In this document: in pieces, positions 12,678-33,865 of the stretch
Numbering within the stretch: position 1 is the stretch's first letter
Layout of the letters: each line of letters opens with the position of its first letter
DNA from: Spirochaetales bacterium
GTDB lineage: Bacteria > Spirochaetota > GWE2-31-10 > MWDO01
DNA: 59,536 nt
Assembly: GCA_017540815.1 (NCBI GenBank)
Contig: JAFYAI010000040.1
Span: 1 to 59,536, forward strand
Reading direction: 5' to 3'
The notes under the pieces: model-generated
The model's input: the letters and a program-made list of their open reading frames with translations, nothing else
What the model was told of the DNA's origin: nothing
Database searches by the model: none
Position numbers and translations under genes: made by a program

Positions 12678-15600
12678 GATGAAATATTTTGATTTGACAA
12701 AAGACTACAATCGTGATACATTCCTTGATTTTGTATATGACTTCTTGCCTGATGATTTTGAGCAGGATATAGATGAGCCGTATTATGATTATAAAAATAT
12801 AGAATCCGGTTACAAGCTTGGCTCATGCGAATCATTGTCTCTCAATGTATATGAGTTTAGAACATTAAGCAGTAAAGATCCGAGAGTTACTCTGACTCGT
12901 GAAGTAGTCGGGCTTATGAAAAAATATGAGTTTTGTCAGAATGCTCTTGTAGTATTTTATAATGAAGATTCCTTGCAGTGGAGACTCTCTCTTATAACAA
13001 CGGATTACACAGAAGAAAACGGCAAGATTAAGCCATTGTATTCCAATCCTAAAAGATTCTCATTTTTGTTGGGCGAAGGCTGCAAAACTCACACTCCTCA
13101 AAGTCTGCTCTTTGATAAAGGTGCGGTAAAGAGTATAGAGGATTTGATTGGGCGGTTTGACATTGAAGTTGTAACTAAAGAATTCTATATTAAACTATTC
13201 TCTTGGTATGAATGGGCGACAAATATGGTGAAATATCCGAAAGGGTGCGGCGGAAATGTAATCTTAGATAATAACTCCAATGAAGAAAATCTGATACGGC
13301 TTATTACAAGACTTATGTTTGTTTGGTTTGTTAAGCAAAAGGGGCTTATACCCAATTGGATATTCGATAAAAAAGAACTTACTGGTGTTTTGAGTGATTG
13401 TGATTTGTTGTCATCCGAGAAAAGCAATTATTATAATGCGATACTGCAAAATCTGTTCTTTGCGACTTTGAATAAAAAAATCACGGAGCGATCATTTACA
13501 AATGATAATAATCGTTCAGAACAATATGGAATAAAAACATTTTTCCGAGATGATAAGGATAATTCTTTCTATAAAATCGATCATGATAGTTTTGTAAAAA
13601 AATTTGAATCTGTACCGTATCTTAACGGAGGTTTGTTTGAATGTTTGGATAAAAGAGATGACGGACCTCAATATTATAATGACGGATTCAGCCGAGAAGA
13701 AAGCAGACGAGCATTCGTACCGAATATATTGTTTTGGAATGAAGATGAAAATCAACTGGGAATAATTAACTTGCTTAATCGATATAATTTTACGGTAGAA
13801 GAAAATACTCCGACAGATGTGCAGGTCGCTCTTGATCCAGAATTGTTAGGTAAAGTATTTGAAAATCTGCTCGGAACATATAATCCTGAAACAAAAGAAA
13901 GTGCCCGAAAAGACAGCGGATCATTTTACACACCGAGAGAAATCGTTAATTATATGGTAAATGAATCGATTATTGCTTATTTGCAGAATAAAGTCAAAAA
14001 CATCTTACCTGAAACTCTAAAACATTTTGTTGAGAATACTGAAAAAGATACGGATTTTGACAGTGACACATTATCTCAAATACGATCTGCAATAGATGAA
14101 ATTAAAATCATTGATCCTGCATGTGGATCCGGGGCATTCCCTATGGGAGCACTGAATAAACTTACTCAAATCAAAATGTCCATTGATAAATCCTGCCATC
14201 ATTTGGAGACAAAAGATGAAGATAAAACATTAATAATAAAAAAAGGACAATCAATATACTATCATCCGACAAAAGGCGACTGTATTAATATTAACATCAA
14301 AGCCGAATATTTGGGTAACAGTCAATTCAGATTGTATATTGACGGTAATGATAAAGGAATGTATGACAGTCAAAGACTTGCTCTAATTGTTAAATCAGAA
14401 ATTAATAAAAGAAATAAAGAAAAAGGGAAAACTACAATAGCTAATCTCTTTTCCCAAGGTAAAATTGAAGACGGCAAAACATTTAATACAATAAAATCAC
14501 AAAAAGATATTCATATTATTGCCGATGAACAAGGAAATATTATTTGGAAATATTCAGTCTATAATGTAGAAAATAAATATAGAAATTACCGCAACGAAAC
14601 GGATGCCTTACCTGATAACCTTGATGATGATTATGAATATTCCAAACATCTGTATAAAACCAAGAAATACATAATTGAACATTCCATATTCGGTGTAGAT
14701 ATTCAGCCTATTGCCGTTCAGATTGCAAAACTGAGATGTTTCCTCTCGCTAATCGTTGATGAAGAAGTCTGTGAAGATGAACCTAATCGAGGAGTTGAAA
14801 CTCTGCCAAATCTTGAAACAAAATTTGTTGCGGCGAATAGTCTTATAGCATCAGGCTTAGGAACTGACAGACAAGGCAGCCTGTTTGAAGATGATGAAAT
14901 CGATGTATTAAAAGAACAATTAAAAGATTTGCGTCAGCATGAATATCCTAATGTGAATACTGCCAAAGATAAAATGCTCCTGCGGGAAAAAGATAAAACT
15001 ATTCGTAAAAAACTAGGGGAATTGATTGCAAATGAATATGATAAATCCGGTCTGTCTGTTATTGAAAAACTTATTGCATGGGATCCCTACGATCAAACAG
15101 CAGGAGCAAGTCCATTCTTTGATGCCGAATGGATGTTTGGAATTAAGAATGGTTTTGATATTGTGATTGGCAACCCACCGTATGGAGCGAAAGTTTCAGA
15201 TGAAGACAAGAAGTATTATATAAAGAATTACGAAGTAGCCAAAACTATAGGTAAAGTTCAAAAAGGCTCGACAGATACTTTTGCAATTTTCATAAATCAA
15301 GGATTTAATTCGTTGAAAATTGGTGGGCAACTCGCATTTATTGTTCCTATGGCAGTTACTTCAAGTGATGCAATGACTTCATTACATAATATGCTTGAAA
15401 GTAATTGCAAAACGATAAAAATATCATCTTATTCAAATCGTCCGAAACAGATTTTTGATGCTGCATGTATTAGAACTTCTGTATTGTTTTTCAGAAAGAC
15501 GGCAACACCAAATATGAGTATTTTTACAACAAAACTGCAACGTCGTCGTTATACAGATTCAATTGGTACAATTATTGATGGATTGAAATATATAGACTCA

Positions 15601-16185
15601 AAAGAACTTAAACTTCCGGGGAGATATGCAAAAATAAGTGAATATATAGAAAAACATATTCTCACTAAACTTTTTGCAACTGGGATGAATATAGAGAGCT
15701 ATGCTAAAGAAAATGGCATCCCATTTTATTATCGCATGGCAGGAGGTAGATATTTTAATGTTATTGCGAATTATTCTACAACAAATTCAACTTCAGAAAA
15801 ACAATTTAATGTTACACCTGAATATCGGGATGTGATTTGTGCTACATTAAGTACAACTTTATTTTGGTTCTATCAGCAAGTGTATACTGATGGATTAAAC
15901 TTAAAAATACAAGATTTGAATTATTTTCCATTGCCTGATTTCTCAAAAATTGATGGAAAAGCAATTTCGACAATAAAGACGAGATACGAAGAGTATCTAT
16001 CTGACATAGAAAGAAATGTGATTCAACACAGTACTTATAAGGAATATAAACTTCGCAAATCAAAGAAATTGATTGATCAGATTGATGATTTGATTTGCCC
16101 TTTGTACGGATTAACTAAAGAGGAAACAGAGTTTATCAAAAATTACGAAATTGAGTTTCGTACAGAAGATGAGACAAAAGAGTAG
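12670..16185 (+). CDS. Eco57I-like N6-adenine DNA methyltransferase / type IIG-like protein
   Basis: 1171 residues; ATG 12670 overlaps the previous stop by 8 nt (a second ATG lies at 12679). The methylase core has the SAM motif DPACGSGAFPMGAL (~481) and the catalytic NPPY (~835) in the order usual for gamma-class adenine methylases. The N-terminal ~300 residues, with RLITRLMFVWFVKQKGLIP, resemble type IIG and PglX-like enzymes. The C-terminus, with FDAACIRTSVLFF and FPLPDFSKI, looks like a target-recognition region. It probably methylates adenine to mark self DNA; I see no certain nuclease motif in it. Together with the helicase it resembles helicase-methylase-ATPase and DISARM/BREX-like systems, an inference that needs profile searches. 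Confidence 0.88.
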   Translation: MTKMKYFDLTKDYNRDTFLDFVYDFLPDDFEQDIDEPYYDYKNIESGYKLGSCESLSLNVYEFRTLSSKDPRVTLTREVVGLMKKYEFCQNALVVFYNEDSLQWRLSLITTDYTEENGKIKPLYSNPKRFSFLLGEGCKTHTPQSLLFDKGAVKSIEDLIGRFDIEVVTKEFYIKLFSWYEWATNMVKYPKGCGGNVILDNNSNEENLIRLITRLMFVWFVKQKGLIPNWIFDKKELTGVLSDCDLLSSEKSNYYNAILQNLFFATLNKKITERSFTNDNNRSEQYGIKTFFRDDKDNSFYKIDHDSFVKKFESVPYLNGGLFECLDKRDDGPQYYNDGFSREESRRAFVPNILFWNEDENQLGIINLLNRYNFTVEENTPTDVQVALDPELLGKVFENLLGTYNPETKESARKDSGSFYTPREIVNYMVNESIIAYLQNKVKNILPETLKHFVENTEKDTDFDSDTLSQIRSAIDEIKIIDPACGSGAFPMGALNKLTQIKMSIDKSCHHLETKDEDKTLIIKKGQSIYYHPTKGDCININIKAEYLGNSQFRLYIDGNDKGMYDSQRLALIVKSEINKRNKEKGKTTIANLFSQGKIEDGKTFNTIKSQKDIHIIADEQGNIIWKYSVYNVENKYRNYRNETDALPDNLDDDYEYSKHLYKTKKYIIEHSIFGVDIQPIAVQIAKLRCFLSLIVDEEVCEDEPNRGVETLPNLETKFVAANSLIASGLGTDRQGSLFEDDEIDVLKEQLKDLRQHEYPNVNTAKDKMLLREKDKTIRKKLGELIANEYDKSGLSVIEKLIAWDPYDQTAGASPFFDAEWMFGIKNGFDIVIGNPPYGAKVSDEDKKYYIKNYEVAKTIGKVQKGSTDTFAIFINQGFNSLKIGGQLAFIVPMAVTSSDAMTSLHNMLESNCKTIKISSYSNRPKQIFDAACIRTSVLFFRKTATPNMSIFTTKLQRRRYTDSIGTIIDGLKYIDSKELKLPGRYAKISEYIEKHILTKLFATGMNIESYAKENGIPFYYRMAGGRYFNVIANYSTTNSTSEKQFNVTPEYRDVICATLSTTLFWFYQQVYTDGLNLKIQDLNYFPLPDFSKIDGKAISTIKTRYEEYLSDIERNVIQHSTYKEYKLRKSKKLIDQIDDLICPLYGLTKEETEFIKNYEIEFRTEDETKE

Positions 16186-16203
16186 AATGTGGAGATGTGA
16201 GAT

Positions 16204-17289
16204 ATGGCAGAATACAATCCGGGTATTGAAGCTCTTAGTGGCTATTATTATCAAATAAAACCATTTGTATCTTTTCTTGCAAACATTTCTGATGGACAGA
16301 ATGGCGGATATGAGTACTGTGATGACATTGCTATTTGTGATGATAAGGAATCGTCATGTAATATAAATCTAAATAGAAGGAAAAAGCTTTTTCAAGTCAA
16401 AAAAACAAATGTAGATGAAAATACTGCACGAAAAGTATTGTATAATTGGTTACTTGCTGAAGATGCCGATGAGTATAATTTGATTGTAGCCCCAAAATAT
16501 ATTTGTAAAGATGATGTAATAACAAAGACAGATATAAACGAATTGTACAAATCTCTTTGTAAGACAGATGGAATGTCTTTGCAAACGAAAGTTTATAACA
16601 AGTATAAGGAAAATAACAAGAAAGACATTTTTTCAGAAAAAGTAGAACATATTCGAAGTCATTATTTACTTATTCCAGATTATAATTGTGATGAGAAAAT
16701 ATTTGAAAACTTTAAAACACATTTTCATTATACATCTGATGACTTTTTATACCAGAAAAGAATAGCAAAATTTGTAGAAAAAATAAATACACTTGTTTTA
16801 GAGTCAGTACATAATAAAGAGCCTTATGTGATTTCTTTTACAGAATTGAATGCGATAATTGAAAATGTGTGTATGGATATAAGCGAAGATAATTATGAAA
16901 TAGATTATGACTTGTTTTGTGATTATCATCCAATTTCATTGAGTGATAAGAAAATTCAAAATTCAAGAGAATATATTCAATTGGAATATTGTAATTTGAG
17001 CAAGTCCATGATTCTGAATAGGCTAAAGGATAAATTATATTATTTAGATTTTCAGGCATATTGGTTGGAAAGAAATAAAACTACAAAAATTAATAGTATT
17101 GAAAATTCTGCCGTTTCAAATTACGAAGATACTCTTGTAGAGCTTGGAAATGATGATTCACCTGTAAATCGATATTCCACAACTATAAAAAAAGAAATTT
17201 CTAACACAAATAATAAAATGCAAAGTAACGGTGTGTATATTAGTCTTACACAAGAAACAGATAAGAGGATTAGTTGGAAAGATGAGTAA
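16204..17289 (+). CDS. DUF4297/Cap4-like nuclease, probable ABC-3C effector
   Basis: 361 residues, starting 18 bp after the methylase stop. The N-terminus IEALSGYYYQIKPFVSFL (8-25) has the GYxYQ signature of the DUF4297/Cap4 nuclease group. It continues with YCDDIAI (Asp40/41) and LFQVKK (Gln64-Lys66), which fit the D...QxK active site of a PD-(D/E)XK fold. The rest is unassigned and may be the dimerisation region found in ABC-three-component effectors. It is followed, with an 8-nt overlap, by the middle component and ATPase of such a system, which supports a role as the DNA-cutting effector. Very AT-rich. Family call is by eye from short motifs, so moderate certainty. Confidence 0.65.
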   Translation: MAEYNPGIEALSGYYYQIKPFVSFLANISDGQNGGYEYCDDIAICDDKESSCNINLNRRKKLFQVKKTNVDENTARKVLYNWLLAEDADEYNLIVAPKYICKDDVITKTDINELYKSLCKTDGMSLQTKVYNKYKENNKKDIFSEKVEHIRSHYLLIPDYNCDEKIFENFKTHFHYTSDDFLYQKRIAKFVEKINTLVLESVHNKEPYVISFTELNAIIENVCMDISEDNYEIDYDLFCDYHPISLSDKKIQNSREYIQLEYCNLSKSMILNRLKDKLYYLDFQAYWLERNKTTKINSIENSAVSNYEDTLVELGNDDSPVNRYSTTIKKEISNTNNKMQSNGVYISLTQETDKRISWKDE

Positions 17290-17701
17290 TATTGAGTTAA
17301 AAGCAAAATTATTAGCAACAGCAAAGTATCTTAGTATAATTGAAACAATATTGGCTACTGTTGGTACCGTTTCTATAATAAAAGTAATCGTTATTTCGTA
17401 TATTTATATGAATAACCATTTTGAAAAAGATATTTTTAGTTTAACGACAAAGAAAAATTTATTTGACAAATATTTAGCACTTTTAACTGCTCAAAAGGAA
17501 GATTTTCTGGTAAACATAGAAACTATTTTTGATGGTATTTTGATATTGACCGATTCACAAGTAATAAATATACAAGATGGAATTCTTGTAAATAATACAG
17601 GTGAGAAAAAATTTACTGATAAATTCTTAGATAAAATTTTGTCTGTTAGTAAGTCATATTCTGATTCTCAGATGCTTAGGGAGATTCTTAACTATGTGTA
17701 A
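17282..17701 (+). CDS. ABC-3C middle component-like protein
   Basis: 139 residues from ATG 17282, which overlaps the effector stop (ATGAGTAA) and replaces a longer frame lacking a ribosome site. The N-terminus has LLATAKYLSIIETILATVG followed by a hydrophobic helix and a YIYMNNHF segment, the arrangement of middle-component proteins that link effector and ATPase in ABC-three-component systems. No catalytic motif is seen. It overlaps the ATPase start by 8 nt (ATGTGTAA), so the three proteins are translationally coupled and probably made in fixed ratio. Assignment rests mainly on context plus a general sequence resemblance. Confidence 0.6.
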   Translation: MSNIELKAKLLATAKYLSIIETILATVGTVSIIKVIVISYIYMNNHFEKDIFSLTTKKNLFDKYLALLTAQKEDFLVNIETIFDGILILTDSQVINIQDGILVNNTGEKKFTDKFLDKILSVSKSYSDSQMLREILNYV

Positions 17702-19430
17702 ACTTGATAAATTAGTTTTAGAAAGAATTAATGGAGATTCTTTTGAATATAAATTTTCAACTGGAATAAACTATTTTAAAGGTGACAATGGATGTGGAAA
17801 AACAGAGTTTTGTAAATTTCTCGACTATATGCTAGGAAGTAGCGAGGATTTAAGAGGGAAGGATTGGTTTAAAGAATTAGGCAAAGGCATTTTAGACATT
17901 CTTATAGATGGTGTAAAATATAGTTTTATGAGAACCTTAAATAGAGAAAAAAATTATATTCAGATAAATGATGAAATTGAAATAATCGAGTGTAATTCAG
18001 AGGATTATAAGATTCGATTAACAGCAGTTTTAAACAATAATCAATCAACATGGTTATTACTGAATAGATTTGCAAACGCAGATATTTCGATACGTTCTCT
18101 TTCTGCGTTTAATTTTTTGGAAGAAAAGGATGTCGGAATCGGTGAGAAAGAGAATTTTTTAACAAAATGTCGAGAGTACAAGTATAAAAAATGGGTTTCT
18201 ATTATTCTTGATTATATTTTTAATCCAAATCAAGATGAAATACTTAATTTAGAAAACGAAATATCAAAATTAAAAGAACTAAAAAAAGAACAAGAAGAGT
18301 TACTCACAAAATTAGATTCATTGAGAAATAGAATTAATTCTGCATTAATTCATCTTAATATTCATTATGAATTTACAAACAATATTACGAAAGTAAAGGA
18401 ATTGTCAAAGAATTTCATGCATACAAAACCTCTTAAGTCAAATAACTATCAAACATTATATCAATTTAATGATATTTCTGAACGAATTAAGCTTATTGAA
18501 AATGCAAATTCTGATGTAGATACTTTTAATAAAGCCGCCCAAAATAGAATTGATTTATTAAGATATTTAAGTAAACTTGTTTCAAAATCAGAAAACTATA
18601 AAAAATTGTCTGAGCCAATAGAATCTCTGCTTGAAGAATTAAATACATCAATCGGGTTTGGACATTACATTGTAAAAAATGAAGTATCAGACAGATTAAA
18701 AAAACTACAAAAAAAGTTTTTAGTTAATGTTAAAGAAGAACAAATATCTGAAAAATATGTATCTATTGATGAAAAATTCAAATATGTTTCTATATTGGAA
18801 GAGTCAATATCAATTTATGAATCTGAATATAAAGATATAAATATTGAAGAAACAATAGAACTCTTAAAAGAAAAAGAAGAACGGCTTGATGAATTAAAAA
18901 CAAGAATGGATGGTGTAAAAATAAATGAATTCGAGCAGAACATTAATTTACTATACTCAAAAGGAAATGCAAATTCAAAACTAATACGAGAAGATATGTC
19001 TTTGCCAAATTTCAAAATTGAATACATAGAAAAAACAAATTCTTTATTATCGTCAATTGAGGTTAAAACAGATAGAGAAGAAAAATCTATTAGAAATAAA
19101 ATTTATAGAGGCAGTCAAGCTAGATTATCACTTATTCAGTTGTGTGGATATTGTGGAATAAATATGCTGTTAAAGAAATACAATAACATACCTTATCTTC
19201 CTGTGCTCGTGTTAGATTATATTTCAAAACCGTTTGATATAGAAAATAAGAAAGCTGTTGGAGATATTTTGTCATCTTTCTTAGATTTGATTGGGAAGAA
19301 TAATTTCCAAATTATTATGTTTGATTGTTGCGAGCAAGAAGATTTTAATATAAATGCAGATAATTATCAGTCATTGATAATAGGTAAAAAGACAGGATTT
19401 GTTCCTTGGTATAAACCACCAAAATCATAG
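17694..19430 (+). CDS. ABC-3C ATPase (SMC/Rad50-like AAA ATPase)
   Basis: 578 residues. Walker A GDNGCGKTEF (30-39) lies near the N-terminus, followed by a long Lys/Glu-rich coiled-coil (~190-430), then the signature region GSQARLSLIQ (~473) and Walker B PVLVLDYISKPF (~503). This layout is that of the DUF3732-like ATPases of ABC-three-component conflict systems, which sense invading nucleic acid or repair intermediates and license the effector. It is the last gene of the operon. The codons are extremely AT-rich. No terminator with a clear U-run follows directly. Confidence 0.82.
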   Translation: MCKLDKLVLERINGDSFEYKFSTGINYFKGDNGCGKTEFCKFLDYMLGSSEDLRGKDWFKELGKGILDILIDGVKYSFMRTLNREKNYIQINDEIEIIECNSEDYKIRLTAVLNNNQSTWLLLNRFANADISIRSLSAFNFLEEKDVGIGEKENFLTKCREYKYKKWVSIILDYIFNPNQDEILNLENEISKLKELKKEQEELLTKLDSLRNRINSALIHLNIHYEFTNNITKVKELSKNFMHTKPLKSNNYQTLYQFNDISERIKLIENANSDVDTFNKAAQNRIDLLRYLSKLVSKSENYKKLSEPIESLLEELNTSIGFGHYIVKNEVSDRLKKLQKKFLVNVKEEQISEKYVSIDEKFKYVSILEESISIYESEYKDINIEETIELLKEKEERLDELKTRMDGVKINEFEQNINLLYSKGNANSKLIREDMSLPNFKIEYIEKTNSLLSSIEVKTDREEKSIRNKIYRGSQARLSLIQLCGYCGINMLLKKYNNIPYLPVLVLDYISKPFDIENKKAVGDILSSFLDLIGKNNFQIIMFDCCEQEDFNINADNYQSLIIGKKTGFVPWYKPPKS

Positions 19431-19781
19431 AAATGAATAATTTATTTCTAAGGTTCCATTATGCCTCACACATTAAACATATTTATTTCCCAATCAGCTG
19501 CCTCTGTTACTTCTAACCAACAAAAGACAGTTAGCTTCAAATAAACTCATTGAAACAATATTTTTTCCCCATTTTAAGGCTCTTTTGTGGGCGTGATGAA
19601 TCACGCCCGTACGTACTCTCCGTTCCCTAGTCCATTACAGACGATGAGACATGAAATAATGAAATTATAAATATAAAAAAATAAGACTTTATTGCCAAAA
19701 TTTGTTATAATATCAATAATAACAAAAAACTAAAATGCGAAAGACGAGAAAATAAAAAATAGTAATGGATGGCAGGAAAAT
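19431..19781. other. Intergenic region after the defence operon
   Basis: 351 bp without a convincing gene. It contains a hairpin GGGCGTGA-TGAA-TCACGCCC (about 19592-19611) followed by CGTACGTAC, and T-rich sequence before it (19559-19571), but no U-tract directly after the hairpin. A possible -10 element TATAAT lies at 19706-19711. Stop codons occur in all frames. Confidence 0.6.
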
Positions 19782-19970
19782 ATGGCAAATATAATACAAC
19801 TTGCAACGCAGGATTTCTGTTTGCAGCATTTGAATCGAAGTAATGACCCTTGCGGTCGTCAGTTTGATCAGATGACTCAGGCTGCACGATCCGTGGCGGC
19901 TATTTTTATATCCTTTATTCTTCTTGATTTATTCCCGCCGTTTTTGTATAATGGTGAATGTGGTGAATGA
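19782..19970 (+). pseudogene. Remnant of a four-helix-bundle (S23-type) protein gene
   Basis: The 62-codon frame contains ANIIQLATQDFCLQHLNR and NDPCGRQFDQMTQAARS, the first two helices of small four-helix-bundle suffix proteins (intact homologues continue with an IVEGSER-like segment). After AARS the sequence becomes unrelated hydrophobic residues and stops, so only a fragment is left. Intact proteins are about 120 to 200 residues and of unknown function. Its decay fits an island with recombination scars. Confidence 0.55.
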
Positions 19971-20047
19971 TATAAGTTTTGATAATATGACGATAAAGCA
20001 TGGCAATGTTACGGCAATGTTGGATATGATTATTTTAGGAATAACAA

Positions 20048-20431
20048 ATGGAAAACAAAATACTTATACACAATATCGATGATTTGAAGAACAAGATATA
20101 CACAATTCGAGGTGTACAGGTAATGCTTGATTTTGATTTAGCTGCAATTTATGGCTATGAAACGAAAAGATTTAACGAGCAGGTTAAAAATAATATCGAA
20201 CGATTTGATGAGGATTTTAGATTTCAGCTGACAGACGAAGAAGTTGAGAAACTTTCAAGGTCAAAATTTTTGACCTTGAACGATATTTACCAGAAGAGAT
20301 TAAGAAGGAGAGAATGTCACACGGATTGGATTTTGCTAACGCAAAATCGGGGAAGAAGAATGGTCGCGAATTTTGCAATAAAAATGCAACGCAAAAATTT
20401 ACATTGCATTTTCGTTGCATTTTTGCAATGA
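20048..20431 (+). CDS. ORF6N-domain protein, C-terminally truncated or degenerate
   Basis: 127 residues. The N-terminal 75 residues match the ORF6N/KilA-N-like domain of phage and island proteins: IRGVQVMLDFDLAAIYGYETKRFNEQV and NIERFDEDFRFQLTDEE, then LSRSKFLTL. Homologues continue with an AFTEQG segment; here the sequence from ~85 on is basic and unrelated, and the last 60 bases carry an inverted repeat around ATGCAACG/CGTTGCAT. I read it as a shortened gene, possibly still expressed. Proteins with this domain are thought to bind DNA. It precedes a DUF1016 nuclease gene, a frequent neighbour in mobile regions. Confidence 0.6.
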   Translation: MENKILIHNIDDLKNKIYTIRGVQVMLDFDLAAIYGYETKRFNEQVKNNIERFDEDFRFQLTDEEVEKLSRSKFLTLNDIYQKRLRRRECHTDWILLTQNRGRRMVANFAIKMQRKNLHCIFVAFLQ

Positions 20432-20465
20432 TGAACTATATAAGTTTTGATAAAGGAAGTCAGAG

Positions 20466-21623
20466 ATGCAGCAGGAATACACAAATGCGGTAAAGGCGAT
20501 AAAAAATGCGATTTTGACATCACAATATGAAGCAGCAAAGGATGTAAATAGAGTTCAGCTTGTGCTATATTTTGGGATAGGACGTTTTTTATCGTCAAAA
20601 AAAGGTAAAGAAACTTGGGGGGGGGCTGTTCTTGATACAATCAGTACTCAATTGCGAAAGGAACTTCCCGGCTTAAGAGGGTTTTCTGCCACAAGTTTAA
20701 AAAACATGCGGCTTTTTTATGAAAATTGGAGTTTTCTCGAAGATTGTAATTCGTCAGTTATAATTGACGGATTGATTGACGAACATTTAAATTCGTCAGA
20801 CGCATCTGACGAATTTGAAGAATCACAAAATTTGGAAATCGTAATTCCCGAATTGAAATTAAGCGGTATAAATATAAATGATTTTCCTATAGAAAACTTT
20901 TTTAAGGTTCCTTTTTCTCATCACATTGCTATTTTCAGTAAAGTAAAAAATCTTCAGGAACGCTATTACTATATTCAGCGTGTTGTAGAAGATCATTTGT
21001 CTGTTGATGCCCTTGAGAGTTTAATTAAAACAAATGCATATAACCATCAGAAAGAAATACCGAATAATTTCAAAAATACTATTGCTTCTTCAAGATTGGC
21101 ACGCAAAGCCATAGAAATGTTCAAAGATGAGTATCTGCTTAACTTTATAAATGTAGAAGAAATCGGTGAGCGAGATAAAGCCGATATTGATGAGCGAGTT
21201 GTTGAACAGGAAATAATCCACAATGTGAAAAACTTTATTATGACTTTTGGGCATGATTTTGCTTTTGTTGGGAATCAGTATCATTTGGAAATGTATGGAC
21301 ACGACCAATATCCTGATTTGCTTTTCTATAATCGCGAGTTGGCGGCTCTTGTTGCTGTGGAATTGAAATACGGAGAATTTAAACCTGCATATTTGGGACA
21401 GCTTAGTGCATATCTGCGTATTCTTGATGATAAAGTAAAAAAGCCGTTTGAAAATCCAAGCATTGGAATAATTCTTTGCAAACAAGCAGACAAGAATTTT
21501 GTTGAATATCTTATCCAAGGTTACAATAATCCAATGGGAGTTGCCACTTACAAAACAGCAGAAGATGTTCGCCGAGTGCTTCCGTCGGAAGAAGAACTTG
21601 CAAATGCTATGAAAGGAATGTAA
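20466..21623 (+). CDS. DUF1016/YhcG-family PD-(D/E)XK nuclease with an in-frame G9 tract
   Basis: 385 residues, full length for the family. The N-terminal YhcG domain shows YFGIGRFLS, ETWGGAVLDTIS, PGLRGFSATSLKNMRLFYENW. The C-terminal nuclease domain shows FGHDFAFVGNQYHLEM, YPDLLFYN (catalytic Asp, ~283) and VAVELKYGEF (E-x-K, ~300), then YLGQLSAYL. Such proteins are found near type I restriction systems and act on DNA. Codons ~51-53 contain nine consecutive G bases (20617-20625), a possible slippage site that would switch the protein off. FolC starts 3 bp after its stop and may be co-transcribed. Confidence 0.85.
   Translation: MQQEYTNAVKAIKNAILTSQYEAAKDVNRVQLVLYFGIGRFLSSKKGKETWGGAVLDTISTQLRKELPGLRGFSATSLKNMRLFYENWSFLEDCNSSVIIDGLIDEHLNSSDASDEFEESQNLEIVIPELKLSGININDFPIENFFKVPFSHHIAIFSKVKNLQERYYYIQRVVEDHLSVDALESLIKTNAYNHQKEIPNNFKNTIASSRLARKAIEMFKDEYLLNFINVEEIGERDKADIDERVVEQEIIHNVKNFIMTFGHDFAFVGNQYHLEMYGHDQYPDLLFYNRELAALVAVELKYGEFKPAYLGQLSAYLRILDDKVKKPFENPSIGIILCKQADKNFVEYLIQGYNNPMGVATYKTAEDVRRVLPSEEELANAMKGM
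20617..20625 (+). repeat. G9 homopolymer inside the DUF1016 gene
   Basis: Nine G bases encode W-G-G-A in the conserved WG motif of the domain. A gain or loss of one base would truncate the protein near residue 60. Confidence 0.9.
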
Positions 21624-21626
21624 ACA

Positions 21627-22922
21627 ATGCAATATAAAACACTTACACAATGCACTGACTATTTATACGGGCTGACCAATCTGGAGAAGAATCTCCGCGA
21701 TGACAAGGCTAAGGCTTGTTATACTCTGGATAATATTCGGCAGCTTATGAATGTCGTTAAGAATGTTTACCCCGATCTGCTGACCGGTAAGAAGGTAATG
21801 CACATTGCCGGAACTAAGGGTAAAGGTTCGACGGCATATATCGCGTCAAGTCTGCTGATGACTCATTACAAAACAGCGACTTTCGTTTCTCCGCATTTGA
21901 TCAGTCCGACTGAGCGGCTGCTGTTGAATCTGACTCCAATCAATGATGATGAGTTTATCCGGCTGACTAACGAACTTGCAGAGATAGTGGATAGTCAGAT
22001 GCCGTCTGAGAAAGTTATCCCGACGACATTTGAGTCATTCTATCTGATGTTCCTGCTGATGGCTTATCATCATCATGCAGATGTGATTGTGCAGGAGACC
22101 GGCTTGGGCGGGCGGCTCGATGCTACGAATGTGATTGACTCGGATGTGGCGGTCATAACACCGATTGGCTACGATCACACAGAGCTGCTTGGTGATACGA
22201 TTGAGGCGATCGCCGGTGAGAAGGCCGGGATTATCAAGGGCGGTCAGGCGGTGATTGCACCGCAGTATTATAAGGTTGAGCCTGTGTTTAAGCGGCAGGC
22301 TCATTCTGTCAGAGCGGAGATCCATTACGCAGAGAATGAGGTTAAATGTGAGTATCGCTATTCTGACGGCGGGTATGATGTGTCGATCGAAGAATGTCAT
22401 ATCCGGCTAAACTGTCTCGGAGACCATCAGGTTAATAATCTCATTACGGCTTTTGATGCGTGCCGCATTCTCGATCCGCAGATTACGCAGTATGTTAAGG
22501 AAGAAACTCGGATTATCCTGCCGCCCGGACGAATACAGATTGTGCGGACGACACCTCCGCTCATCGCCGATACTGCTCATAATCGAGAGTCTGTTGATAC
22601 ACTTGTGACGACGCTGCAGCGTTATTATCCCGATGTGAAGTGGCTTGTGCTGTCGTCAATGGCGGCGGATAAGGATTATCGGTATTTTTATAAGCGGCTG
22701 TCGGAGATTGCCGATAAGTTTATCATTACATCTTTGTCATCATCGAAGGTGAGCAATCCGAAGATTATTGCCGATTATGCAGCACAATTGTGCGAGACTG
22801 ATTTTGTACCTGATACTGATTCGGCAATCCGCCTTGCCATTTCGCAGAATATTCCGCTATTGGTGACAGGATCGTTTTATCTGACAGGACCGGTTATACA
22901 ATTCATAATGCATAATTCATAA
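21627..22922 (+). CDS. folC: Folylpolyglutamate synthase / dihydrofolate synthase
   Basis: 431 residues. Motifs of the Mur ligase-like FolC family are present: YGLTNLEKNL at the start, the P-loop AGTKGKGSTAYI (~61-72), SPHLISPTERL (folate binding), ETGLGGRLDATN and the C-terminal-domain segment DTAHNRESV. It adds glutamate to (dihydro)folates in the cytoplasm. Base composition returns to that of housekeeping genes here, so the accessory patch ends at its start codon. It starts 3 bp after the DUF1016 stop without a clear own promoter. Confidence 0.9.
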   Translation: MQYKTLTQCTDYLYGLTNLEKNLRDDKAKACYTLDNIRQLMNVVKNVYPDLLTGKKVMHIAGTKGKGSTAYIASSLLMTHYKTATFVSPHLISPTERLLLNLTPINDDEFIRLTNELAEIVDSQMPSEKVIPTTFESFYLMFLLMAYHHHADVIVQETGLGGRLDATNVIDSDVAVITPIGYDHTELLGDTIEAIAGEKAGIIKGGQAVIAPQYYKVEPVFKRQAHSVRAEIHYAENEVKCEYRYSDGGYDVSIEECHIRLNCLGDHQVNNLITAFDACRILDPQITQYVKEETRIILPPGRIQIVRTTPPLIADTAHNRESVDTLVTTLQRYYPDVKWLVLSSMAADKDYRYFYKRLSEIADKFIITSLSSSKVSNPKIIADYAAQLCETDFVPDTDSAIRLAISQNIPLLVTGSFYLTGPVIQFIMHNS

Positions 22923-22931
22923 TGCATAATT
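22904..22931 (+). repeat. Short direct repeat AATTCATAATGCAT
   Basis: Two adjacent copies of AATTCATAATGCATA at the 3' end of folC; the stop codon lies inside the second copy, suggesting a local duplication at the gene end. Confidence 0.7.
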
Positions 22932-23011
22932 GAGTGAGAGATTTATAATAACATATTCCGCTTTCTGTATTGTCTGAGAATAAGGAAGAGATATAAATAA
23001 GGAGTACAATT

Positions 23012-23353
23012 ATGAATAAATTCAAGGTCACAGGTTTTACTTTTTGGGGTGATAGTCGTTTTATTAGTGACGATATTGATGAAAATGATCGACCTACACC
23101 GAGAGATTATGCAGATATGAAAAGAGCAGTAGTCAATTATTTGGCAGACACAGATACATTTTTCCTACCTGAATATCATCAGCATGGAGAATATGGCGTT
23201 CCTATTTTGAATGATAAATATAGATTTGAATGTTCAATGCGTGCATGGGGACGTGTATTAGCAGATGCCTTCGGCGGAGATTATGTTGAATATTATTGCC
23301 ATTTTGATGACTCATATCCTATAAAACTTCCAGATGAGGATATGAGAAAATAA
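23012..23353 (+). CDS. Hypothetical protein, 113 residues
   Basis: ATG follows AAGGAG. Acidic, soluble, no signal peptide or membrane segment; contains FTFWGDSRFISDDIDEND, a Trp/Tyr-rich centre and DYVEYYCHFDDSYPIKLPDED. I do not recognise the family. It stands alone between folC and the caspase-like gene and has its own strong terminator. Its small size and position beside defence genes would suit an immunity or regulatory protein, but nothing in the sequence proves this. Confidence 0.65.
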   Translation: MNKFKVTGFTFWGDSRFISDDIDENDRPTPRDYADMKRAVVNYLADTDTFFLPEYHQHGEYGVPILNDKYRFECSMRAWGRVLADAFGGDYVEYYCHFDDSYPIKLPDEDMRK

Positions 23354-23380
23354 AGCAAATTTTAATAGATTAGTAATTGT

Positions 23381-23420
23381 AAACGCAGTATATTTTGCTA
23401 TCGTAAAATATACTGCGTTT
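23381..23420 (+). terminator. Strong hairpin after the 113-residue gene
   Basis: Perfect 16-bp stem AAACGCAGTATATTTT / AAAATATACTGCGTTT with an 8-nt loop; only a short T-rich stretch (ATCTTTAT) follows. It insulates the downstream RNA promoter at 23443. Confidence 0.75.
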
Positions 23421-23442
23421 ATCTTTATATTCATAAATTTAT

Positions 23443-23471
23443 TTGACAACTTCTATATAATGTGATAAACT
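23443..23471 (+). promoter_or_regulatory. Promoter of structured RNA copy C
   Basis: TTGACA (23443-23448), 17-bp spacer, TAAACT (23466-23471). A TATAAT at 23456 lies too close to this -35 box to be used with it. Same layout as at the two other copies. Confidence 0.6.
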
Positions 23472-23477
23472 TCATTT

Positions 23478-23662
23478 AGAATAAAACCGTGTTTAGAAGC
23501 GATTCGTACTCGCAATAAAACATAGGTATTTACCAAATTCATATTCTATCGTTGTGGGCTTTTCGCTTAGAAAAGACCCGCAGTTTTGATGGGCAAGATG
23601 TATTTTGTTCTATGAATTTGGGGATACACTTGCCGTACGGCTTCAAAACTGCGGGTCTTGTT
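23478..23662 (+). ncRNA. Structured double-pseudoknot RNA, copy C (upstream of the caspase-like gene)
   Basis: Predicted helices: outer stem TGTTT/AAACA (23490-94/23518-22); inner stem GCGA/TCGC (23499-502/23510-13) with loop TTCGTAC; pseudoknot 1, CGTAC (23505-09) with GTACG (23635-39); central helix GTAT..CCAAATTCATA with TATGAATTTGG..ATAC (23526-43/23611-27); hairpin CTTTTC/GAAAAG (23559-75); pseudoknot 2, a perfect 17-bp helix between 23573-23589 and 23643-23659. The architecture matches copies A and B while the sequence differs. The 3' end lacks the TTTTT run of the other copies, so transcription may continue into the gene at 23691, making this a leader RNA for it. Confidence 0.75.
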
Positions 23663-23690
23663 CTATTATTATAGAATTCGGAGGACTGCA

Positions 23691-24941
23691 ATGAAAAGTA
23701 AAAATTTTTTTTGTATCATTTTGTTGATGTTTATTTCTGTATCGATATATGGTGAAGCTAGAAATGCATTGCTGATAGCCAATGGCAAATATGCAAAACT
23801 ATCTAAGTTGGATAATCCTATTCCTGAAGCAATAGCATTGAAGAAATCTCTATTGGAGCTTGGATTTGAAGTTACACTTATTTCAAACGCAACATTAGAA
23901 AATACGAAGATCGAAATGAAAAAATTCCGAGATAAAATCAAAAATGAAAAAGGCATAGCTTTTTTTCATTATGGTGGTCATGCTGTGCAGGTTAGCGGAG
24001 AGAATTATCTTATTCCTATAGATGCTGATATTCCAAATGAGGATTATGTATCAACAAGGACCTATCCGATTAAAGAATTGATGATTAGTATGGTTGGAGA
24101 AACAAACATTGTTGTACTTGACTGTTGCCGCAATAACCCGATTCCTGCTTCTAGTAGAAATGCTGTTCGAGGTCTTCAAATGATTTCTGATAAACTTAAA
24201 AACTCTGTTATTGTTTATTCGGCACAACCAGGACAGACAGCAGAAGATGGGGTATTTACTCCTATTTTTACAAGAAAAATACTTGACAATAAATCTTTTA
24301 GTGAAGTTTTGATTGATGTTCGTAACGAAGTATCTAAAATAACGAATGGCAAGCAAATACCAGGAGAGTACAATGAAATAACCGAGCAAATTTATCTTGC
24401 TAATGTTCCGGGGAAAGACGAGAAACTTGCCAAAGAAATAGCTTATGAAAAAGCAAGAAAAAAAGCTTTAGAAGCAGATTTGGCTATGGCTCAAAGTTCA
24501 AAAGAAAAAGAAAGAATTAATCAAGAATTAGAGCGTGTAGAGGCAGAAACGAAACATAAGCAATTAGAACTTGAAAAAGAAAAAAAACGTCAGCAATATG
24601 AACAAGAAGAAACAAGAAGGCGACAAGAAGAATTTGAGAAGCAAAAGCGACAGCAGGAAGAACTTGATAGAATAAAACGAGAAAATGAAATAAAGCGTCA
24701 TGAGTTGGAAAAAATAAAAACTGCTACTACAAATGATAAAAATAGTATAAAAGAAAATAATGTATCTTCTACTAATATAGTTAAAAGTAAGTCTGTTGTA
24801 AAACCAGCAACCGTTAAAGATAATTTAAAAAGTCATAATAGTTTGAATATATCATTTCTTATATCGTGTATGATTGGAATAATAATATCGAGTGGATTGA
24901 TATATGTTTTTTATATATTATGGGTGATGTATAATCATTGA
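23691..24941 (+). CDS. Caspase-like (peptidase C14) protein with signal peptide, coiled coil and C-terminal membrane helix
   Basis: 416 residues from the ATG at 23691 (GGAGG upstream). Residues 1-21 form a signal peptide. The caspase p20-like domain follows, with catalytic His97 in HYGGHAVQ and Cys146 in VVLDCCRNNP, both in the canonical positions. Residues ~240-350 are a Glu/Lys/Arg/Gln-rich coiled coil. A single hydrophobic segment lies at ~382-408. The layout suggests an exported or membrane-tethered Arg/Lys-type protease whose targets are unknown. Bacterial caspase homologues act in cell-death defence or in surface biology; the export signal favours the latter or an envelope role. Its leader contains structured RNA copy C. 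Confidence 0.83.
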   Translation: MKSKNFFCIILLMFISVSIYGEARNALLIANGKYAKLSKLDNPIPEAIALKKSLLELGFEVTLISNATLENTKIEMKKFRDKIKNEKGIAFFHYGGHAVQVSGENYLIPIDADIPNEDYVSTRTYPIKELMISMVGETNIVVLDCCRNNPIPASSRNAVRGLQMISDKLKNSVIVYSAQPGQTAEDGVFTPIFTRKILDNKSFSEVLIDVRNEVSKITNGKQIPGEYNEITEQIYLANVPGKDEKLAKEIAYEKARKKALEADLAMAQSSKEKERINQELERVEAETKHKQLELEKEKKRQQYEQEETRRRQEEFEKQKRQQEELDRIKRENEIKRHELEKIKTATTNDKNSIKENNVSSTNIVKSKSVVKPATVKDNLKSHNSLNISFLISCMIGIIISSGLIYVFYILWVMYNH

Positions 24942-24962
24942 TATTATTAAATAATTGTTTAT

Positions 24963-25001
24963 AAAAAAAACTGAAAATCTATTGATTTTTCAGTTTTTTT
25001 T
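24963..25001 (+). terminator. Terminator of the caspase-like gene, overlapping the next promoter
   Basis: A8-CTGAAAATC / GATTTTTCAG-T8 hairpin (one bulged base) directly followed by GTTATAAT. The next gene's -35 (TTGATT, 24982) lies inside this hairpin. Confidence 0.8.
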
Positions 25002-25009
25002 GTTATAAT
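24982..25009 (+). promoter_or_regulatory. Predicted promoter of the KAP-type NTPase gene
   Basis: TTGATT (24982-24987), 16-bp spacer, TATAAT (25004-25009). The -35 element forms part of the upstream terminator hairpin. Confidence 0.55.
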
Positions 25010-25058
25010 TGCTGAAAGAAGTTTTTCTTATGATAGAGTTATTAAATGGAGATGTTGT

Positions 25059-26948
25059 TTGAGAAGTAATGAGCATATAAAAGAGTATTGTAAAAAGTTT
25101 ATTGAATCACCTGAAAATCCTCATTTTGCTTTGTTTATAAAGGGAGATTGGGGAACAGGAAAGACCTATTTTATTGAAAAACTTATTGAAGAATACACAG
25201 ATCAAACAGAAGTAAAAAAGAGCGAAATTATTAAAATTAGTTTATTTGGTGTACAAACTTTTGAAGATATAGATTTAAAAATATATCAAGCACTTCATCC
25301 TATTTTGTCTTCTAAATATATGAAATTAGCAGGGGCAGTTCTACGTTCTGTTGTAAAACTAAGAATTGGTTGCGATTTGAATAGTGATGGGAAAAACAAT
25401 TTATCTATATTTACGGATGGAATTAATGCTTTATTTGATACCAAAAAAGAAAGTTCATTTTCAACAAAACTTTTGATTGTTGATGATTTTGAGCGTGCTT
25501 TAATGAAACCATGTGAGATTTTTGGTTATTTCTCTGAAATTATTACAGAGTCAGACACAAAAGTGATTTTTATTGGTAACGAAGAAAAAATTGAAAATAA
25601 AGATAAATATCTACAGATTAAAGAAAAGATTATTGGTATGGAGTTTCAAATAGAACCTGTTTTTGATGAAGCGATAGAACAATTTGTTATTGATATTCCA
25701 TTTACTGAAGAAACAAAGAGCGAATTAAAAGCAATAGTAAAGAATATTGCAATCAATTTGAATTGCAGAAATTTACGAATAATTCGTCAATCTCTTTATA
25801 ATCTAAATTTATTTATTGAAGTAATTAATTCATTTGAAGAAGAAGATCAACAAAATGCTATTATTGTTTTTTTAATACTTTTTATTCAAAAGAGTTTGAA
25901 AACTATTAGTATTACTGATGATATTTCAAAAGTGATAAAAGCATATTTTCATGAACAAATTTCATATTTAGAATATTTGAATAAACATTATAAAGATATT
26001 GAATATTGTTTTCTTTATGATCGGGTTAATTATATCCCTTTATTGAGATATTGGCATTCTATTATATTTGATGGAAATTACCAAACAGAATTTTTAACGA
26101 GTGAATATAAGAATGAGAAAAAACAAATTGAAATTTCTCAAACAAATCAGAGAAAAAAATTATTTGTTTTACTTGATACTTGGTCTGATATGGATAATGA
26201 AGTTTTTCGTAAAACAATTATGGTAATTAATAAAGAATTTGAATCAGGAGAATATTTAAATATTGGGGAGATATTGCATTATGCAAATATTATGATAATC
26301 TTTGCAAGACTAGGACTTATAGCAGAATCTGTTGATAAAATTCAAAGTCGCATTTCTGAGTTTCTTAATTTTTATCATGAACAAATAATTCCTGTGAAAG
26401 ATTGGATTATGCTGCAAATGGGGTATGGTGGATTCAGTTTTAATATTGAGGGATTAGAATCTATGGAATTTTATGATAAATTAAAGAAAATTAATGAAGA
26501 TAATATTTATAAGCAATCAAAATTAGATATTAATAATGATATTAATTTGATAGAAAAAGAAATTACAGTGTTTTGTAAAAATATTATTCTTGCGAATGGG
26601 AATAATAAGTATTATGATCAGCCGATTTTGAGTTTTTTAGATATTGACAGTTTTTATGAGGTTATTCAATCTCTTCCTGTAAGAAATCAAGAAATAATTA
26701 TTAGTGCGTTTGAGGAAAGATATGGGAAAAGTTATTCAAATGAGCCTTTTAATAGCAAATATATTGCAGATTATATAAACTTAAAAAAATTAGCAAAAAA
26801 ATATACTTCAAATAACCAAGATTTTTTATATAATCCTCAAGCATATTTTAAGGATAAGATAGCTAAAAGATGGCTTGAACTAGTTGCTTATTTTGAGAAG
26901 AAAGATCCAAATTTGCTAAAATATACAAATGTGGACAATAAAGCATAA
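25059..26948 (+). CDS. KAP-type P-loop NTPase (accessory, possible defence)
   Basis: 629 residues with a TTG start at 25059 behind GGAGATG; no in-frame ATG lies nearby upstream. Walker A KGDWGTGKTYF (28-38) and Walker B LLIVDDFERA (~138-147), where the FER after the acidic pair is usual for KAP-family and related STAND-like NTPases. ISLFGVQ and VIFIGNEEK (sensor-1-like) fit as well. The rest is helical, extremely AT-rich and without recognised domains or membrane segments. KAP NTPases occur in phage-defence islands; here no partner nuclease is obvious, though the caspase-like gene precedes and an AlbA_2 regulator follows. Confidence 0.75.
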   Translation: MRSNEHIKEYCKKFIESPENPHFALFIKGDWGTGKTYFIEKLIEEYTDQTEVKKSEIIKISLFGVQTFEDIDLKIYQALHPILSSKYMKLAGAVLRSVVKLRIGCDLNSDGKNNLSIFTDGINALFDTKKESSFSTKLLIVDDFERALMKPCEIFGYFSEIITESDTKVIFIGNEEKIENKDKYLQIKEKIIGMEFQIEPVFDEAIEQFVIDIPFTEETKSELKAIVKNIAINLNCRNLRIIRQSLYNLNLFIEVINSFEEEDQQNAIIVFLILFIQKSLKTISITDDISKVIKAYFHEQISYLEYLNKHYKDIEYCFLYDRVNYIPLLRYWHSIIFDGNYQTEFLTSEYKNEKKQIEISQTNQRKKLFVLLDTWSDMDNEVFRKTIMVINKEFESGEYLNIGEILHYANIMIIFARLGLIAESVDKIQSRISEFLNFYHEQIIPVKDWIMLQMGYGGFSFNIEGLESMEFYDKLKKINEDNIYKQSKLDINNDINLIEKEITVFCKNIILANGNNKYYDQPILSFLDIDSFYEVIQSLPVRNQEIIISAFEERYGKSYSNEPFNSKYIADYINLKKLAKKYTSNNQDFLYNPQAYFKDKIAKRWLELVAYFEKKDPNLLKYTNVDNKA

Positions 26949-27013
26949 CTATATAATGTGGTATTATGAGTTTCTTCTTTGCAAATGTATTTTTATAGGA
27001 GCAACAACTCAAC

Positions 27014-28345
27014 ATGACTTTCACAGAAACTGAAAAAACAGAACTGAAACAAAAATTTACGGATACTCTTTCCAAAGAAATCATCGCTTTTTTGAATACT
27101 GACGGCGGAATGATTTATATCGGAGTGAATGACGATGGTACTGTTTGCGGTGTTACAAATCTTGATGAATCGCTAAAAAAGATAGCCGATATGTTGGAAA
27201 GTCAAATCTTGCCGGATTGCCGTTCGTTTGTGGAATTAGGCACAAAATATATTGAGCAAAAGCATGTAATCGAGATAGGAGTTCAAAAAGGCGATGACCT
27301 TTATTATATAAAGAAATATGGCAGAAGTTCTCAAGGCTGTTTTTTGCGTGTCGGTTCTACATGCCGAGCGATGACGGAAGATCAGATTAACATTGTTCAC
27401 AACAAATATTTGGATTCAAGAGTTAGGATTACTGAGATTGTTGGCGGTATAAAAAATCCGTCTTTTCAATATTTGAAACTGCTGCTGACTGAAAAAGGTT
27501 TTACTATAAATGAAAAGACTTTTGCCGAGAATTTCCATCTGCTGACAAAGGACGGCAGTTATAATAAGATGGCTGAACTTTTGGCTGATAAGAATGAGGT
27601 TTCGATTAAAGTTGTCCGTTTCAAAGGCAAGAGTAAGTCTGACGGTATTGCAATGCGTAATGAATACGGTGAAAAGTGTCTTGTAGTTGCGATGAAGCAG
27701 GCTTATGATTATTGTGCTGATGTGATAAATGAAACACATACCAGTTTTACAAATGGTATTCGTAATGATATGCCGCTTTTTGACCGAGATGCTTTTCGTG
27801 AAGTGTGGTTTAATGCTTGTTTGCATAATAATTGGGCAGACGGAACTCCACCGGCGATATACATTTATACAGACAGAATGGAGATAATTTCAACCGGCGG
27901 ACTGCCGCAGAACCTTTCAAAAGATGACTTTTTTCGCGGTGTTTCTAAGCCTGTAAATGAAGAATTGGCAAAACTTTTTATTCGTTTGAATTTAGTGGAG
28001 CAGACCGGCTACGGAATTCCACTGGTGACAAACCGCTATGGGGAAACCGTTTTTGAGTTTTTGGACTTCTTTTTACGAGTTACAATTCCATTTGAATTTG
28101 AGCTTGAAAGCGAAGATATTCAAGATGTTCCTCAAGGTTCACAGAAAAGTTCACAGAAAAGTTCACAGAAAATTATTGAAATGATAAAACAAAATGCTCA
28201 TGTTACAACACAGGAAATGGCAGATACTTTAGGTGTTTCACGAAGAGCGGTTGCAAAAACTATAGCTAAACTGCAAGAAACAAATTGCGTTCGGAGAGTT
28301 GGTTCGGATAAAGGCGGTCATTGGGAAATTATTACGGAGAAGTAA
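27014..28345 (+). CDS. AlbA_2 (Schlafen-like) ATP-binding regulator with C-terminal winged HTH
   Basis: 443 residues. The N-terminal AlbA_2 domain has LKQKFTDTLSKEIIAFLN and GGMIYIGVNDDGTVCGV (10-50). The middle holds a GHKL-like segment NACLHNNWADG and YTDRMEIISTGGLP (~270-300). A Ser/Gln/Lys hinge encoded by three 12-bp repeats (28137-28172) leads to a winged HTH ending RRVGSDKGGHWEI. Such proteins are usually transcription regulators of accessory loci. The C-terminal module is closely similar to the stand-alone HTH protein in the defence operon. Base composition is intermediate, unlike the very AT-rich KAP gene before it. Confidence 0.85.
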   Translation: MTFTETEKTELKQKFTDTLSKEIIAFLNTDGGMIYIGVNDDGTVCGVTNLDESLKKIADMLESQILPDCRSFVELGTKYIEQKHVIEIGVQKGDDLYYIKKYGRSSQGCFLRVGSTCRAMTEDQINIVHNKYLDSRVRITEIVGGIKNPSFQYLKLLLTEKGFTINEKTFAENFHLLTKDGSYNKMAELLADKNEVSIKVVRFKGKSKSDGIAMRNEYGEKCLVVAMKQAYDYCADVINETHTSFTNGIRNDMPLFDRDAFREVWFNACLHNNWADGTPPAIYIYTDRMEIISTGGLPQNLSKDDFFRGVSKPVNEELAKLFIRLNLVEQTGYGIPLVTNRYGETVFEFLDFFLRVTIPFEFELESEDIQDVPQGSQKSSQKSSQKIIEMIKQNAHVTTQEMADTLGVSRRAVAKTIAKLQETNCVRRVGSDKGGHWEIITEK

Positions 28346-32716: not shown

Positions 32717-33865
32717 TTACAGCCTTATTGCCATTGCCATAGTAATTTCTTTGCTCTCCATACTGTAGTTGCCGTCATTGTAAGGACTGATATTGAATGA
32801 CATAAACTTTTCACCGGACACTCTATGGTAAATCTTGGCGATTTTACCCATTCTTGAGAAAGGAATAGCACACATTGGTGTTACTATGCATCCTGTTATA
32901 AACATTATACCTGCAACTGCTGCAATAGGAATACCGATAAATGGGATGAATGCAGCAAGGACGGCCCCCACTGGCAGAATACCCAAACCAACTCCGCCAA
33001 CAACGCTGCCTGATATTGCAAGAGCTTTACCATGTTTTTTCTGTTCCAAAAATCTTGACCACATAGCGTCTTTGTTGCCCGGATGTATGCCCCATTTGAA
33101 ATACAGTATTTTTTCAATAAATGCTCTGTCTTTTTCAGTCAGTTCTTTTTGTCCTGGAGCAGATTCGATTTCTCTCGGGTCATAGTCACTGTTGGAATAT
33201 CCCATGTTTTCCCAATTCATATAACGTCCTATTGGTTTCTTATCATTAGTATTCTTTTTAGACTGGGTAAATAACAGTTCAAGATTTTTTACTTCTTTTG
33301 CTTGCATCCATCCGTCCATACCTTCTTCCCATACAAGAGTCTGAGTAGTCAATTTGCCTTTGCTCTTCATATCTTCCAACGCATCCCAATCATAAGGACC
33401 TGACTGAGCTCCGTCAATTATTGCATAGATACTAACCTGCGGTTTAGGCGGAGCAGGAGGAGCAGGAGGAACAGCCGGTTTCGTTTCCTGGGCAATGGCA
33501 GGCGGCTGGGGCTTAGCCGGAGCAGGTTTTGCCGGAGCAGGTTTCTTTTCTTCAAATACAGAAGCAAGTTCTTTCACTTGTCCTGCCGGTGTCCATCCGT
33601 TCATGCCGTCCTTCCAAACAAGAGTTTCTTTTGTAAAGAGATTCTGAGTTTTCATTTTCTCCAATGCAGTCATGTCAAACGGACCGCCTTGTTTCCCATT
33701 TATTACGACATGATATTCAATTTTTGGTGCCGGTGGTGCTGGTGGAGCAGGCGGAGCAGGTGGTGCTGCTGATGGAACAGGTGGCGGAACTTTCGGCTGA
33801 GCCGATATACCCAACACACTTATCATACATAATACTAATGCAATAATGCAAATTTTACTTTTCAT
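32717..33865 (-). CDS. Exported protein with Pro/Ala linkers and two GYF_2 domains
   Basis: 382 residues. Signal peptide 1-22 (ends ISAQ). Two copies of the GYF_2 motif (GGPFDMTALEKM...TLVWKDGMNGWTPA at ~60-95 and SGPYDWDALEDM...TLVWEEGMDGWMQA at ~155-190) are preceded by PPAPPAPPAP and PAPAKPAPAKP linkers. A Gly/Ile-rich hydrophobic stretch at ~280-325 should be membrane-embedded. GYF_2 domains bind proline-rich peptides, so the protein could bind its own linkers or those of partners. AGGAG lies before the ATG. Structured RNA copy A lies on the same strand ~190 bp upstream. Confidence 0.8.
   Translation of the reverse strand: MKSKICIIALVLCMISVLGISAQPKVPPPVPSAAPPAPPAPPAPPAPKIEYHVVINGKQGGPFDMTALEKMKTQNLFTKETLVWKDGMNGWTPAGQVKELASVFEEKKPAPAKPAPAKPQPPAIAQETKPAVPPAPPAPPKPQVSIYAIIDGAQSGPYDWDALEDMKSKGKLTTQTLVWEEGMDGWMQAKEVKNLELLFTQSKKNTNDKKPIGRYMNWENMGYSNSDYDPREIESAPGQKELTEKDRAFIEKILYFKWGIHPGNKDAMWSRFLEQKKHGKALAISGSVVGGVGLGILPVGAVLAAFIPFIGIPIAAVAGIMFITGCIVTPMCAIPFSRMGKIAKIYHRVSGEKFMSFNISPYNDGNYSMESKEITMAMAIRL

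Follow-up and report, generated by a model that had tools for sequence, protein, structure and literature searches.

A putative 5' leader RNA of a caspase-like gene in a Spirochaetales bacterium and its approximately 30 paralogous copies

The trp leader of Bacillus subtilis, which is controlled by TRAP, combines a choice between antiterminator and terminator with a hairpin that masks the Shine-Dalgarno (SD) sequence in the read-through RNA, and TRAP itself binds (G/U)AG repeats. The SAM-II riboswitch of Sinorhizobium meliloti metA, with SAM as its ligand, is a pseudoknotted leader in which the SD is masked and a Rho-independent terminator between AUG1 and AUG2 gives rise to a small RNA, and translation of the main gene starts 3' of the riboswitch SD (PMC9373788). 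In the B12 riboswitches of Mycobacterium tuberculosis metE and ppe2, the leader controls whether a short upstream ORF is translated, ppe2 being dependent on this ORF, and premature termination takes place in the leader (PMC11260477). Here we describe an RNA, named copy C, in front of a caspase-like gene in a window of 59,536 nt, which is the whole stretch of DNA that was analysed (Spirochaetales bacterium, assembly GCA_017540815.1, contig JAFYAI010000040.1), together with its relatives in the same genome.

Like the metA leader, these RNAs are predicted to be pseudoknotted leaders with SD masking, a terminator and a main gene that begins beyond the leader SD. They differ from it in being a distinct RNA by Rfam search and in having the terminator before the SD, and the strand triad S1/S*/S2 presented below is not described for SAM-II. 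The M. tuberculosis B12 switches belong to a known aptamer class, to which our RNAs showed no Rfam relation, and are not known to form a 30-copy family. With the trp leader the RNAs would share two-level control from one leader, whereas (G/U)AG repeats were not seen as a conserved feature of the family and the trp leader is not known to have pseudoknots or the triad. T-box leaders (RF00230) likewise form a multi-copy family, switch between terminator and antiterminator and have a variable loop, but the partner of the variable loop in our family is a strand in cis, PK1'. A T-box identity was rejected: RF00230 gave no match, and the downstream genes encode caspase-like, CsgG, lipoprotein and other products and are not aminoacyl-tRNA or amino-acid genes. 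The other Rfam classes were ruled out as well, as none matched the element. The family is also reminiscent of type III toxin-antitoxin RNAs of the ToxI type, in that a structured RNA with a pseudoknot precedes a gene that may be toxic, in most copies with a terminator between the two. This assignment was rejected because repeat search and self-BLAST revealed no tandem units in 23443-23700 and the protein is a Peptidase_C14 and not a ToxN-type endoribonuclease.

The gene behind copy C (23691-24941, plus strand) is predicted to encode a caspase-domain protein of 416 aa (Peptidase_C14, E 6.8e-29) with an N-terminal signal-like segment, HYGGH and DCCRN motifs, a coiled coil and a C-terminal hydrophobic segment. 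Its surroundings (window 9099-28345) may form a defence island, with a helicase giving DrmD-like matches, a type IIG restriction-modification system, an LmuB-like ATPase and a PDC-S02 nuclease, and a KAP NTPase matching PDC-S49 lies directly 3' of the caspase gene. Three caspase genes follow an RNA of the family (copies C, L048 and L117), and 7 of the 10 caspase paralogues have no such leader, indicating that the RNA is not bound to caspase function. A search for related loci with the caspase as query, and likewise a DNA pattern search of the genome contigs, returned nothing, and none of the viral loci matching the search pattern carried the family RNA.

Copy C extends over approximately 23478-23659 on the plus strand and is preceded by a sigma-70-like promoter (23443-23471) that consists of a -35 box TTGACA (23443-23448), 17 nt, and a -10 box TAAACT (23466-23471) with TG ahead of it. 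The first-pass annotation had placed the start of the element at 23443; this is actually the -35 box, and the RNA probably starts near 23478. Four promoter-like sites were found in the copy C stretch, compared with 2.5 expected from shuffles, and a 9/12 match within the 3' strand of helix P3, with a candidate start at ~23676, was weak and scored at chance level; this position falls in the interval for which the first-pass annotation had named a caspase start as evidence against a leader. The leader folded more stably than its shuffles, with z -5.2 for 23478-23690 and z -4.6 for 23443-23700.

From 5' to 3', the plus strand of copy C carries the P1 hairpin (23490-23522) with loop L1 TTCGTAC (23503-23509), strand S1 CCAAATTCATA (23533-23543), and the P2 5' strand TCTATC (23545-23550), which can form an alternative helix with 23588-23593. 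The P2b hairpin (TTGTGGGC..CCCGCAG, 23552-23580) belongs to the MFE fold, in which it takes up the 5' strand of P3 and so competes with P3. The latter is a helix of 17 bp between AAGACCCGCAGTTTTGA (23573-23589) and TCAAAACTGCGGGTCTT (23643-23659). Between these strands lie the two strands of P4, GGGCAAGATGTAT (23591-23603) and ATACACTTGCC (23624-23634), with S* TTCTATGAATTTGGGG (23608-23623) in the P4 loop, and PK1' GTACGG (23635-23640), which forms a pseudoknot to loop L1 (CGTAC/GTACG). S* has two possible partners, namely S1, through 23611-23621, and S2 plus the SD. Strand S2 TATAGAATTC (23670-23679) abuts the GGAGG of the caspase gene (23680-23684), and the end of P3 is 31 nt from the ATG at 23691, in agreement with the ~30 nt and the nearby GGAGG noted at first pass. 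With its own promoter and the conserved S2 strand next to the caspase SD, copy C is very probably a 5' leader of this gene, as had been suggested.

The earlier statement that copy C has no TTTTT after its 17-bp helix was also correct. In the tail 3' of P3, GTTCTATTATT, the longest T run in the scored stretch was 2, compared with 5 after P3 in each of copies A and B, the two other copies in the window, which do end in U-tracts as reported. Copy C thus has the GC helix of an intrinsic terminator without the U run, while A and B have both.

With copy C as query, BLAST and nhmmer found no other copy in the window or the genome; what A, B and C have in common is their anatomy, not their primary sequence. 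A first covariance model, based on this anatomy and on two copies found by BLAST with B, yielded 22 clear copies, and a second model built on these 22 detected 29 at E <=8e-8 plus L117 at E 0.012. The family thus comprises 30 copies in the 3.07-Mb genome, not the three recognized initially, and A (34229 to 34065, minus strand) and B (52384-52558, plus strand) are real relatives of C by both anatomy and model. A TTGACA or TTGACT was located ~30-60 nt 5' of every copy inspected with upstream flank, except the 5'-truncated L043/L111.

Copy A (34065-34276, minus strand) consists of the -35 box (34276-34271), P1 (34229-34196), S1 (34185-34178), P3 (34146-34133/34083-34072), S* (34114-34107), PK1' (34093-34087) and a U run. 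It is followed on the same strand (34056-34007) by S2 (34056-34049), the SD GGAGG (34048-34044) and an 8-codon ORF, MRTFCISS (34033-34007), and its main gene (32717-33865, minus strand) encodes an exported GYF_2-domain protein. Copy B (52339-52558, plus strand) carries a promoter, P1 (52384-52421), S1 (52433-52440), P3 (52476-52488/52540-52551), S* (52508-52516), PK1' (52530-52536) and a U run, and is an orphan with no S2, SD or same-strand gene. S2 was missing from B and L115, and the only orphans were B and the 5'-truncated L111. A YafQ-type toxin gene with a small upstream partner (window 52563-53203, minus strand) is convergent to B, in which it may have taken the place of the gene that originally followed the RNA. 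L111/L043 (G000:C159:18824-18989) lacks P1 and S1 and keeps S*, the terminator, S2, the SD and a 7-codon ORF, and is possibly a decaying copy. In L116 (G000:C140:10287-10376 and upstream) a longer extra hairpin domain is present at the tip of P2b, which therefore appears to be an arm of variable length.

The first-pass annotation had set A and B apart from C as free-standing terminated RNAs. This distinction could not be maintained, since 28 of the 30 copies, including A, have a same-strand gene on their 3' side. The U run does separate A and B from C, but its absence from C is not unique: it is missing also from the second caspase locus L117, where the SD likewise serves the main gene directly and the tail GTCTTGT is shared with C. 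A direct SD was found in L115 as well. Behind the SD, 23 copies carry a short ORF (6-9 codons, typically MRTNxxxx) whose start, as read from the sequence, often lies inside a GGUUCU..AGAAC hairpin; the main gene, with its own SD, follows at a spacing of roughly 70-300 nt. The main genes are of CsgG/LpoB type in D, E, L039, L041 and L044, and others encode HEPN/RES proteins, an ion channel, a dynamin-like GTPase, an FGE-sulfatase-type protein and many lipoproteins.

Some of the spacers contained additional elements. In the L048 spacer (G000:C118:9178-9268) we observed a second repeated leader module with hairpins AAATGGAGTATACTCCATTT and GTTGTTCTTGACAGAACAAC followed by an SD-like hairpin; it was present also in the spacers of L046, L047, L050, L052 and L116 and occurs at some 15-20 genome sites, several of which have no known family RNA nearby. 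In the L047 copy, the stretch that separates the short ORF from its main gene contained a match to Bacillaceae-1 RNA (RF01690; L088:1771-1832; 38.5 bits, gathering score 35). It was the sole above-threshold Rfam match, outside the element; searches with Rfam 15 that covered 16 copies and allowed E values up to 5 gave none on the family element, nor was there a match in the window at gathering score.

The genome has 5 matches to FlaA, the flagellar sheath family of spirochaetes, compared with 0 of 14 controls, and is therefore probably that of a spirochaete. No clear match to the covariance model was obtained in 3 genomes of the same family and 5 of the same order. The family was not detected in 384 other genomes of the phylum (393 scanned, own genome included), where the best 6 candidates per genome were scored and weak isolated copies could escape. 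Phage and plasmid collections gave no match, and no description of the element was found in the open-access literature. As judged from the sequences, the family is one of undescribed leader RNAs that would work like known cis-regulatory leaders and falls in no tested family. Because it is known from one genome, all covariation is between paralogues.

The six helices ranked highest by an unbiased column-pair search of the 22-copy alignment were P3, P4, P1, PK1, P2 and S1:S*. In the terminator-state structure 82.7% of cells were paired, compared with 38-50% in slid controls; 40 of its 47 pairs changed on both sides and 0 of 500 shuffles reached its score. For P1 all 6 pairs changed on both sides, and PK1 was 73% paired with a score of 0.518 versus 0.245 when shuffled. 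P2 was 89% paired versus 43-58% in slid controls, with a covariation score reached by 0 of 500 shuffles, although it shares strands with P3 and P4; P2/P2b and P3/P4 are mutually exclusive. In most copies a U run follows P3, and the conserved bases are mostly in P2-P4, while L1 and the S strands vary. A conserved structure is located directly 5' of same-strand genes in 28 of the 30 copies, as in cis-regulatory leaders. It is very improbable that the copies are a mobile or regulatory DNA cassette of promoter and terminator that was copied before accessory genes, with functionless RNA structure past the terminator. The high copy number in one genome, the diverse cargo genes, the orphans B and L111 and the other repeated module in several of the same spacers are compatible with such a cassette, but the strong covariation of the L1:PK1' pseudoknot and of the S triad, as well as the lack of matches in the phage and plasmid collections, argue against it.

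Within the triad, S1 immediately precedes P2, the P4 loop contains S*, and S2 is found after the U run and before GGAGG; S* is complementary to both S1 and S2. In the 22 copies, cognate strands paired far more strongly than non-cognate ones for S1:S* (-15.9 versus -5.6 kcal/mol), S*:S2 (-14.0 versus -5.0 kcal/mol) and L1:PK1' (-10.5 versus -6.0 kcal/mol; p=5e-5 each), and four control strand pairs were not significant. Some non-cognate S*:S2 pairs were nevertheless strong, 12 of 784 being at or below -18.5. The own S1:S* ranked first in 22/22 copies and the own S*:S2 first to third in 21/22, B having no S2. Six held-out copies gave the smallest possible p, 1/720, for each of the three pairings; the control pair S1:S2 gave 3/720 with weak energies. 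The predicted S*:S2 duplex ran into the SD in all 27 copies with S2, covering 2-4 of the GGAG bases, and triads with 7 or more pairs were found in 22 of these 27 compared with 3 of 65 unrelated SD-ATG sites of the window. Both of the alternatives open to S*, pairing with S1 and pairing with S2, are therefore supported, and the same applies to P2 versus P3.

These strands could also act in trans: the terminated RNA of ~190 nt would be a small RNA whose S* represses the S2-SD of matching, perhaps also other, mRNAs, and in C it would be processed from the leader. The terminator that ends most copies, the match of S* to S2 beside the SD, the retention of S1:S* in orphan B without S2, and the near-random identity of the S strands between copies (0.34-0.36, the most variable, compared with 0.67 for P3 and 0.83 for the SD-AUG region, the most conserved) are in line with this. 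We nevertheless consider it unlikely, as every S* has a mask in its own S1, the best S2 target of B (-11.5) is not a strong one, and several non-cognate S*:S2 pairs equal cognate ones in strength, which selection for specificity in trans should have removed. Quite unlikely, too, is a constitutive leader that neither responds to a signal nor switches but fixes a low expression by terminating in part and masking the SD, with alternative pairings as by-products of paralogue duplication. Neither a trigger nor a conserved ligand pocket was found for the family RNA and the downstream genes are functionally mixed, as such a leader would allow; however, S1, S* and S2 have stayed complementary while diverging to near-random identity, and P2 and P3 share strands, which implies that both alternatives are selected.

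Our preferred reading is that copy C is probably a cis-acting 5' leader switch of the caspase gene and one of ~30 paralogous leader RNAs. With three matching strands able to hide or expose the SD, the copies look like built-in on/off switches of genes for secreted proteins, lipoproteins and caspases. In one fold, S1:S* together with P2 would prevent the terminator and leave S2-SD free; in the other, P3 would terminate and S* would capture S2-SD in the read-through RNA. As both folds would affect terminator and SD, transcription and translation would be switched together. The SD of most copies would drive the 6-9-codon ORF 5' of the main gene, presumably as a translational relay.

Most likely, most copies combine a terminator with SD masking and copy C uses SD masking alone. 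The first-pass annotation had left open whether copy C controls translation or transcription; the loss of the U run favours translation over termination, and L117 has the same layout. Because the SD also serves the caspase gene directly, copy C would act on translation initiation. Its nested folds, before pseudoknots, were close in energy (free MFE -72.4 kcal/mol for P2 plus S1:S*, -70.7 kcal/mol for the P3 fold), which predicts that it is near bistable, and its S*:S2 (-12.6 kcal/mol) is among the weakest of the family. Once P3 is open, the tail GUCUU of its 3' strand can mask the AGGAC of the SD in a hairpin of -9.6 kcal/mol; this would reverse the polarity in copy C, and either fold may be ON. 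Nested partition-function calculations gave no consistent effect on SD accessibility, S*:S2 with P3 intact being a pseudoknot and beyond nested folding.

More tentatively, the family may represent a new class of signal-responsive leader, in which termination and SD masking are coupled through the shared strand of S1/S*/S2, an 8-codon ORF serves as relay, and a common signal acts on ~30 copies before exported CsgG/lipoprotein genes and three caspase-like proteases. The three-strand exchange with copy-specific addresses would be a natural counterpart of designed riboregulators, and with its ~30 natural variants the family would lend itself to studies of the ways in which termination, SD masking and short upstream ORFs work together. 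If this is true, one signal would act through one undescribed RNA architecture on a regulon of ~30 genes, the three caspase-like proteases among them, and the regulation of a bacterial caspase homologue would become directly testable.
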